Shown here: positions 36,866 to 38,966 of the stretch, piece after piece | Layout: each line of letters starts with the position of its first letter | How positions within the stretch are numbered: the stretch's first letter is position 1 | Origin: Streptomyces antnestii | Lineage (GTDB): Bacteria; Actinomycetota; Actinomycetes; Streptomycetales; Streptomycetaceae | Reading direction: 5' to 3' | NCBI RefSeq assembly: GCF_004005495.1 | Contig: NZ_RZYA01000026.1 | Coordinates: forward strand, 1-64,000 | DNA length: 64,000 nt | Position numbers and translations under genes: made by a program | The notes under the pieces: generated by a model | Database searches by the model: none | What the model was told of the DNA's origin: nothing | Seen by the model: the letters and a program-made list of their open reading frames with translations, nothing else

Positions 36866-37771
36866 TCAGTCCATTTCGGACAGCAGGCCTCGGATGAGGT
36901 CGACGCTCTTCGCGGGCGTCGGGCATTCCGCCTGGAGCTGCTCCATGGCCCGCGCGTACTGCGTGACGTCCTCGCGCTTGTCGAGGTACAGGGCGCTGGT
37001 GAGCTGCTCCATGTAGACGATGTCCGAGAGGTCGGACTCGGGGAACGTGAGCATCGCGAAGGCGCCCGTCTCGCCCGAGTGGCCGCCGAAGCCGAACGGC
37101 ATGACCTGGAGCGTGACATTGGGCCGCTCGGCGATGTCGATCAGATGCTGGAGCTGACCCCGCATCACCTTGCGCCCGCCGTACGGGCGCTGGAGCGCGG
37201 CCTCGTCGAGTACCACGTGGAAGTCGGGGGCGTGCTCGGAGACGAGGAGTTTCTGGCGCTCCAGGCGCAGCGCCACGCGCCGGTCGATGTCGGCCTGCGC
37301 GGCGTCCTTCATGCCACGGGCGACGACCGCGTGCGCGTACCCCTCGGTCTGCAGCAGGCCGTGCACGAACTGCACCTCGTAGGCGCGGATGAACGACGCG
37401 GCGCCCTCCAGGCCGACATAGGTGGGGAACCAGCCGGGCAGCACATCCGAGTAGGTGTGCCACCAGCCCGCGACGTTCGCCTCCTTGACGAGGGAGAGGA
37501 GCGCGCCGCGCTCGGCCTCGTCGGCGACGCCGTACAGGGTCAGCAGGTCCTCGACGTCCCTGGACTTGAAGCTCACCCGTCCCAACTCCATGCGGCTGAT
37601 CTTCGATTCGGATGCGCGGATCGAGTAGCCGGCGGCTTCCCGGGTGATTCCGTGGGACTCGCGAAGGCGCCTCAGCTGTGAGCCCAGCAGGATGCGCCGC
37701 ACCACCGAGCCTCCCCCGGGACTCAGCGTCTGGGGGGACCCCCACGACTCTCCTGCGCTCACGTCGCTCAT
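36866..37771 (-). CDS. XRE-type HTH regulator with DUF5753 domain
   Basis: The product has 301 residues. The N-terminal helix-turn-helix (LLGSQLRRLRESHGITREAA then RASESKISRMELGRVSF, about 29-70) is followed by the DUF5753 domain (YVGLEGAASFIRAYEVQFVH, LLQTEGYAHAVV, DFHVVLDEAALQRPYGGRKV, MPFGFGGHSGETGAFAMLTF). GGGGAGGG precedes the ATG. It belongs to the large Streptomyces WhiJ/Scr1-like group, which usually sits beside a DUF397 protein and an ATPase of the RsbW type. Both are present here (38033 and 38599). DUF397 partners are thought to modulate DNA binding by such regulators. Confidence 0.9.
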   Translation of the reverse strand: MSDVSAGESWGSPQTLSPGGGSVVRRILLGSQLRRLRESHGITREAAGYSIRASESKISRMELGRVSFKSRDVEDLLTLYGVADEAERGALLSLVKEANVAGWWHTYSDVLPGWFPTYVGLEGAASFIRAYEVQFVHGLLQTEGYAHAVVARGMKDAAQADIDRRVALRLERQKLLVSEHAPDFHVVLDEAALQRPYGGRKVMRGQLQHLIDIAERPNVTLQVMPFGFGGHSGETGAFAMLTFPESDLSDIVYMEQLTSALYLDKREDVTQYARAMEQLQAECPTPAKSVDLIRGLLSEMD

Positions 37772-37929: not shown

Positions 37930-37977
37930 CGTGCACGTGCATCTGCCCTTGCATCTGCTGTACGCATTCGGAACGAT
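37930..37977 (+). promoter_or_regulatory. Copy 1 of a 26-bp element with promoter of the ATPase gene
   Basis: The 26 bp at 37930-37955 read, in the direction of the ATPase gene, GTGCACGTGCATCTGCCC followed by TTGCATC. They match 25 of 26 bases of the element upstream of the DUF397 gene. Exactly 15 bp after the GCATCT that ends it lies AACGAT (37972-37977), a possible -10, with the ATG 55 nt further on. The element contains the direct repeat TGCATCTGC twice. The likely binder is the neighbouring HTH protein. Confidence 0.65.
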
Positions 37978-38032
37978 GGCTCCGCACCACCGCTCCACTC
38001 GCTCTGTACCGCGAATCCCGGGAGTGCCTCGC

Positions 38033-38515
38033 ATGGGGACGAATGGACCGGCCATGCTCGAGCCGTTAAGGCAGGGGCTTCCGCCACTCGACCCATCAGC
38101 CGTTTCCAGTTCCGCTTCCTGCGCCCTGCCCGCCCGGTACGAGGCGGTGCGCAGCGCCCGCCGGTTCACGCGCGGGACGCTCGACGGCTGGGACGTGGCG
38201 GACAGGTTCGACGACGTCTGTCTCGTCGTCTCCGAACTCGTCACCAATGCCCTGCGGCACGCGCTGCCCTCGGACACCCCGCGCGCCCAGGACCCGCCGG
38301 TGCGTCTGCACCTGATGCGCTGGACCTCGCGCCTGGTGTGCGCGGTGCGTGACCCCAGTGACGAGAGCCCCGTCGCCCGTGACACGGACGACGACTTCAA
38401 TGCCGAGTCCGGACGCGGTCTGTTCCTCGTCGACTCGTTCAGCGACAGCTGGGGCTGGCACCCGCTCGCGAGCGGCCCCCACGGCAAGGTGGTCTGGGCG
38501 CTGTTCCGCCTCTGA
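38033..38515 (+). CDS. HATPase_c_2 serine-kinase/anti-sigma-like ATP-binding protein
   Basis: The product has 160 residues from the ATG at 38033 (GGGAG 8 nt upstream); longer in-frame starts from 37892 would run through the promoter element. The GHKL fold shows SARRFTRGTLDGWDVADRFD, the N-box LVVSELVTNALRHALP (ELxxNAxxH), DPSDESPVARD and the G-box ESGRGLFLVDSFSDSWGWHP. Such RsbW-like proteins are abundant in Streptomyces and often lie beside DUF5753/DUF397 genes. Few have known partners. It diverges from the HTH gene and converges with DUF397. Confidence 0.87.
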   Translation: MGTNGPAMLEPLRQGLPPLDPSAVSSSASCALPARYEAVRSARRFTRGTLDGWDVADRFDDVCLVVSELVTNALRHALPSDTPRAQDPPVRLHLMRWTSRLVCAVRDPSDESPVARDTDDDFNAESGRGLFLVDSFSDSWGWHPLASGPHGKVVWALFRL

Positions 38516-38598
38516 CAGCCGGCAGTGGACAGTCGGCAGCGGACGGCCGTCAGCTGACGGCCATCAGCTGTTGGCCATCCGCTGTTGGCCGTCAGGGG

Positions 38599-38841
38599 TC
38601 AGCTGTCGGCTATCAGGTGGTCGAACTCGCCGTCCTTGACGCCGAGGAGCAGCGCCTCTATCTCGGCCGGCGTGTAGACAAGGGCCGGCCCCTCGGGGAA
38701 GTTCGAGTTGCGCATGGCGACTCTGCCCCCGGGCAGTTTCGCGAACTCCACGCAGGAGCCCTGCGAGTTGCTGTGCCTGCTCTTCTGCCAGACCACACCG
38801 TGAAGTTCCGTGGCCGCCATGCCGTTGTACACGTGGTGCAC
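38599..38841 (-). CDS. DUF397 domain protein
   Basis: The product has 80 residues from the GTG at 38841 (GGGGAG 6 nt upstream). The DUF397 core is GVVWQKSRHSNSQGSCVEFA, then KLPGGRVAMRNSNFPEGPAL and YTPAEIEALLLGVKDGEFDH. Members are small partners of DUF5753 HTH regulators; the cognate regulator here is probably at 36866-37771. A TATGAT -10 and the 26-bp element lie upstream at 38919-38966. Confidence 0.9.
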   Translation of the reverse strand: MHHVYNGMAATELHGVVWQKSRHSNSQGSCVEFAKLPGGRVAMRNSNFPEGPALVYTPAEIEALLLGVKDGEFDHLIADS

Positions 38842-38918
38842 AGGTCGCTCCCCGGTGGTGCTGTGGCCTATGTGGCACTAGTGGCTCGTGATGCAGGTGT
38901 AGTGGTCAACTGTCCTGG

Positions 38919-38966
38919 ATCATAGCTGCGTTCACATGCTGATGCATGGGCAGATGCACGTGCACG
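38919..38966 (-). promoter_or_regulatory. Copy 2 of the 26-bp element with TATGAT promoter of DUF397
   Basis: On the minus strand the 26 bp at 38941-38966 read GTGCACGTGCATCTGCCC then ATGCATC. One base differs from copy 1. The -10 TATGAT (38919-38924) follows after the same 15-bp interval from GCATCA as in copy 1, placing the element over the -35 region. The transcript would start about 70 nt before the GTG of the DUF397 gene. Confidence 0.7.

Follow-up and report, generated by a model that had tools for sequence, protein, structure and literature searches.

Which DNA sequence do WhiJ-type regulators read, and what do they do to the genes beside them? Together with AbaA proteins and BldB paralogues, they make up a regulatory family of Streptomyces that ranks among the largest and most poorly understood, with about 20 copies in the genome analysed here. 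Clusters of whiJ, abaA and bldB-paralogue genes are well known (PMC4255298, PMC10294661), and within the open literature searched WhiJ9 alone has a defined binding site. We analysed a window of 64,000 nucleotides from Streptomyces antnestii (contig NZ_RZYA01000026.1, positions 1 to 64,000), in which a near-identical 26-bp element precedes two of the three genes of such a cluster. For the WhiJ-type locus conserved most widely, it supplies an exactly defined candidate operator that ties in both partner genes. With the residues that likely read it named as well, these long-puzzling developmental regulators gain a testable target sequence, and the old problem of WhiJ and DUF397 function becomes open to direct test.

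A paired element at a whiJ-abaA-DUF397 locus

The locus has the composition of a WhiJ/AbaA/BldB-paralogue cluster: a gene encoding an N-terminal XRE HTH and a DUF5753 domain, an adjoining HATPase_c gene and an adjoining DUF397 gene. Its features are:

36866–37771, minus strand: whiJ-like gene (SCO3421 type), the proposed regulator; Pfam HTH_31 4e-15, DUF5753 2e-57
37930–37955, plus strand: candidate operator, copy 1 (abaA side); CGTGCACGTGCATCTGCCCTTGCATC
37972–37977, plus strand: −10-like hexamer AACGAT of abaA; AACCAT in most relatives
38033–38515, plus strand: abaA-like HATPase_c_2 gene (SCO3423 type); HATPase_c_2 1e-13
38066–38068, plus strand: TTA (bldA-dependent) codon 12 of abaA; TTA in 75 of 80 Streptomyces orthologues
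38516–38612, no strand: very strong hairpin where abaA and DUF397 converge; −61.9 kcal/mol, z −6.4
38599–38841, minus strand: DUF397 (BldB-like) gene (SCO3424 type), with its own promoter and convergent to abaA; DUF397 6e-19
38919–38924, minus strand: −10 hexamer TATGAT of the DUF397 gene; identical in 63 loci, an identity partly due to selection because sites on this side were located through TATGATC
38929–38940, minus strand: degenerate third unit AGCATG-TGAACG (DUF397 side), up to about 4 bp from the −10; TGAAC 97–100% conserved
38966–38941, minus strand: candidate operator, copy 2 (DUF397 side); CGTGCACGTGCATCTGCCCATGCATC

The gene set very probably corresponds to SCO3421/SCO3423/SCO3424 of S. 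coelicolor, judging by gene content, by the TTA codon (present as codon 12 of abaA, absent from the whiJ and DUF397 genes at the locus) and by the description in PMC4255298. That likeness is one of gene content: the same three families are present, and PMC4255298 describes no operator. The abaA-like gene starts at an ATG after GGGAG, in a conserved start context. Another ATG, inside AACCATGG (37976), was rejected as a general abaA start because its distance to the GGGAG-preceded start is not a multiple of three in many relatives. The hairpin between the convergent genes is probably a bidirectional terminator. Codon 12 of abaA would add a dependence on the bldA tRNA on top of the operator.

The two copies of the element agree in 25 of 26 bases; when the two intergenic regions were shuffled 300 times, the best 26-bp agreement reached was 20. 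Both −10 hexamers begin 42 nt from the start of the element, so the near-identical pair at equal −10 spacing reported in the initial annotation stands. Each copy is built from 6-bp half-units (TGCACG/TGCATC/TGCCCT/TGCATC): copy 1 reads TGCACG-TGCATC / TGCCCT-TGCATC, phased at 6 and 12 bp with TTGCAT embedded at −35 spacing, and copy 2 reads TGCACG-TGCATC / TGCCCA-TGCATC. Because TGCA is self-complementary and TGCACGTGCA is palindromic, single units can be read as direct or inverted.

The only mismatch, at position 20, may shape the promoters. With T in place of A, ATGCAT becomes TTGCAT, which stands 17 bp from the −10 of abaA and would place the abaA −35 within the operator. From sequence, abaA seems to combine such an embedded −35 with a poor −10, and the DUF397 gene a good −10 with no clear −35. 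The difference between the copies is systematic rather than noise: in Streptomyces, all 70 of 70 abaA copies have T at position 20, and 60 of 63 DUF397 copies have A.

Conservation and exclusivity

The element is conserved upstream of both genes throughout Streptomyces. A match with at most two mismatches occurs in all 296 genomes scanned, a result that is weak taken alone, with the reversed control also giving about 1–2 per genome; among the matches listed, most form +/− pairs about 1.0–1.2 kb apart. We then collected 80 Streptomyces loci with the WhiJ protein as sole query, so that the element itself played no part in their selection. All 80 carry abaA and DUF397 relatives with the element upstream of both, although these loci are phylogenetically related and the counts are of non-independent events. 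The initial annotation's reading of the copies as paired, equally spaced from −10 elements and cis-regulatory in appearance is supported. Column identity reaches 99% in the abaA element and 95.5% in the DUF397 element, against 55–70% in the flanks. Upstream of abaA the −10 keeps an offset of 42, except in a group where one extra base makes it 43; in the S. canus group, abaA copies only seemed to be missing, because a 1-nt insertion disturbed the alignment. A second protein-selected sample of 48 loci has the element on the abaA side in 47 and on the DUF397 side in 46.

Near-exact copies of the element are almost confined to this locus. In the 8.93-Mb genome, the 18-mer core GTGCACGTGCATCTGCCC has two exact matches, both here, and a search allowing two mismatches adds a single site, inside a predicted lipoprotein coding region; the 12-mer TGCACGTGCATC occurs exactly twice, in the two copies. 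Across 22 Streptomyces genomes of a class-wide sample, 37 of 38 exact matches to the 15-mer TGCACGTGCATCNGC lie at this locus, the one exception being in genome G088. A genome-wide regulon is therefore rejected for near-exact sites in the own genome and in these 22, and the closed circuit that the initial annotation envisaged fits the data. The element is also absent from the paralogous DUF5753 trios of this genome, where the best 14-mer match has at least two mismatches (19 of 20 loci scored; L260 had no WhiJ match). No operator is recognisable upstream of whiJ in the window; in several other genera, by contrast, an additional palindromic copy lies nearer whiJ.

Conservation extends beyond the genus. 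Orthologues of the WhiJ-like protein occur in 16 of 17 sampled genera of the family and in several other families. The strict two-unit pattern TGCACG-TGMAYN-N6-TGCA is carried by 46 loci in a further set of 60; outside Streptomyces the figure is 44 of 58. Twenty shuffled sets contained no instance. A hexamer of the form NANNNT stands at the equivalent offset, ±1 nt, in 40/40 abaA-type copies of the 60-locus set, nearly all of them outside Streptomyces.

Rearranged loci separate the element from whiJ. In two genera (g2 and g5) the order is abaA, DUF397 and then a convergent whiJ, leaving the abaA promoter no longer adjoined by whiJ. Despite this rearrangement both promoters retain the element, which therefore belongs to abaA and DUF397 and not to whiJ. 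In the same two genera it lies downstream of the DUF397 −10, TATCAT, and in another genus (L192, for example) the DUF397 copies are inverted. In a further genus of the family (L171 and L173), the WhiJ-like genes are duplicated at the orthologous locus, both close to the query.

Regulator and sign of control

We propose that the WhiJ-like protein docks at its own dedicated local operator, over the −35 and spacer of the abaA and DUF397 promoters. At least two protomers could bind side by side, because the array is made of TGCA-centred half-units of 6 bp and repeats in full every 12 bp. Bound protein would mainly repress both promoters by occlusion. The DUF397 partner, itself encoded behind this operator, would in turn modulate WhiJ, closing a local feedback loop. 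For AbaA to be made, the block at the operator would then have to be lifted and the bldA tRNA be available for the TTA codon. We hold this combination of a dedicated WhiJ operator and repression by occlusion with about even confidence.

Geometry inclines us towards repression. The element overlaps the −35 at both promoters; in two genera its DUF397 copy sits downstream of the −10, and in another genus that copy is inverted. At abaA a TTG-type −35 is embedded within the element, and on the DUF397 side the degenerate extra unit comes within about 4 bp of the −10. These features fit repression better than the activation put forward in the initial annotation, which is not supported as it was stated. 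The same operator and regulator could nevertheless work by class II activation over the −35 of both promoters, with DUF397 as an antagonist providing negative feedback, a possibility we regard as real and on the doubtful side. The 26-mer is centred near −41, a classical activator position, and the abaA promoters keep a strict geometry with the 42-nt offset to the −10. Each promoter also has a poor element of its own: the abaA −10 is weak, and the DUF397 promoter shows no −35 that can be recognised. Against activation stand the downstream and inverted operators at DUF397 in other genera, the extension of DUF397 arrays into the spacer and the maintained TTG of the abaA −35. WhiJ9 of Streptomyces venezuelae offers analogies both ways. 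It activates iosA, which makes activation conceivable within the family, and abaA paralogues rise when BldB is lost; yet the sites it binds are tandem direct repeats, and in its absence the whiJ9 transcript goes up about twofold, which by analogy would suit repression (PMC10294661).

Whichever the sign, the element is very likely the operator of this WhiJ protein. The adjacent XRE/DUF5753 protein appears by far the best candidate to read it, because its HTH segment is co-conserved with the element, because paralogous loci lack the element and because the element survives rearrangement on abaA and DUF397. Residues 54–60 (SESKISR), the recognition-helix segment, are invariant in 139/139 orthologues drawn from Streptomyces, its family and other families, except residue 58 (138/139); position by position, only 3–9 of 17 same-genome paralogues share the residue. 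Relative to the query, these orthologues are 79–90% identical in the HTH and 56–76% in the DUF5753 domain. The link that the initial annotation drew to the neighbouring HTH/DUF5753 regulator is thus borne out by co-conservation, by rearranged loci and by paralogous ones. Control of abaA and DUF397 by some other, unlinked regulator is improbable: the core does contain CACGTG, and unlinked developmental regulators exist, but a single-locus site would be unusual for a global regulator, the element is co-conserved with the WhiJ recognition-helix segment, and operator and WhiJ orthologue occur together in diverse genera. A functionless recent duplication or chance similarity, which two near-identical copies 1 kb apart might suggest, is already refuted by conservation, since both copies are kept genus-wide and beyond, complete with the base that tells one from the other.

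A phased array and its relation to known operators

On the DUF397 side, the element is a phased repeat array that grows in 12-bp steps, as the distance from its first unit to TATGAT shows: 42 nt in 63 loci, 54 in four, 66 in five and 78 in one, with the remaining seven of 80 lying 1–2 nt off a 42+12n value. In Streptomyces this array includes a degenerate third unit, TGCAYGTGAAC, that runs nearly to the −10. We put forward, at somewhat less than even confidence, that a WhiJ-family regulator reads 12-bp units whose number varies by species in whole units (two to five full periods upstream of DUF397) while their phase to the −10 is kept. Such a side-by-side protein array could let its length tune DUF397 feedback apart from AbaA, and period and sequence might differ from one WhiJ paralogue to the next, WhiJ9 having a 10-bp and the present protein a 12-bp period. 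In one genus (L204–L207), the DUF397 operator is a near-perfect run, TGCACGTGCACATGCACGTGCACATGCACG, an array with 6-bp periodicity.

The closest known system is the WhiJ9 operator of iosA-whiJ9, where three tandem direct repeats with the consensus CGxxCTCAAC are bound (PMC10294661). Both loci have a WhiJ-family XRE/DUF5753 protein beside a BldB paralogue, tandem repeats at a promoter and a local target gene. WhiJ9, however, has a single site, which is intergenic and lies 113 bp from the start of iosA, whereas here two sites each lie over the −35 of a separate promoter; its repeats in relatives have a 10-bp period, unlike the 12-bp period and TGCA core of the present element. The WhiJ9-type operator, as exact 10-bp triple repeats CGGACTCAAC-CGATCTCAAC-CGGTCTCAAC, stands beside a WhiJ paralogue in four Streptomyces genomes (L285–L287, L289). 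The tandem CGxxCTCAAC pattern is absent from the own genome, and the element falls outside WhiJ9-type operators.

Scr1/Scr2-like pairs also join an XRE protein to a DUF397 partner (PMC6262351, PMC10364602). In those pairs the DUF397 gene comes after the XRE gene, whereas at the present locus it stands apart as a convergent unit under an operator of its own. XRE/DUF397 pairs have been proposed as type II toxin-antitoxin systems, and both papers argue for regulation instead; neither text gives a binding site for Scr1/Scr2-type pairs.

What is known, then, is the WhiJ/AbaA/BldB-paralogue trio and the binding of direct repeats by WhiJ9; no mention of the core sequence and no description of an operator at this locus turned up in the open-access full-text literature searched. 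The authors of PMC10294661 speculated that abaA paralogues are regulated by neighbouring WhiJ proteins, and the present operator is what that idea predicts.

We do not claim tandem repeats as a general feature upstream of WhiJ paralogues: short-period repeats were clearly significant in just two of 18 scored loci (one of 12 bp, one of 8/9 bp). Five to six 12-bp tandem repeats of the GGAGATGTGCCC type precede a further DUF5753 gene of this genome (L254, G000:C6:86500-90500) and may be the operator of that WhiJ paralogue. At L256 (G000:C5:169500-174000), dense short tandem repeats, GTGCTGCGG/TCTTGTGG, lie between a WhiJ paralogue and its AbaA-like neighbour.
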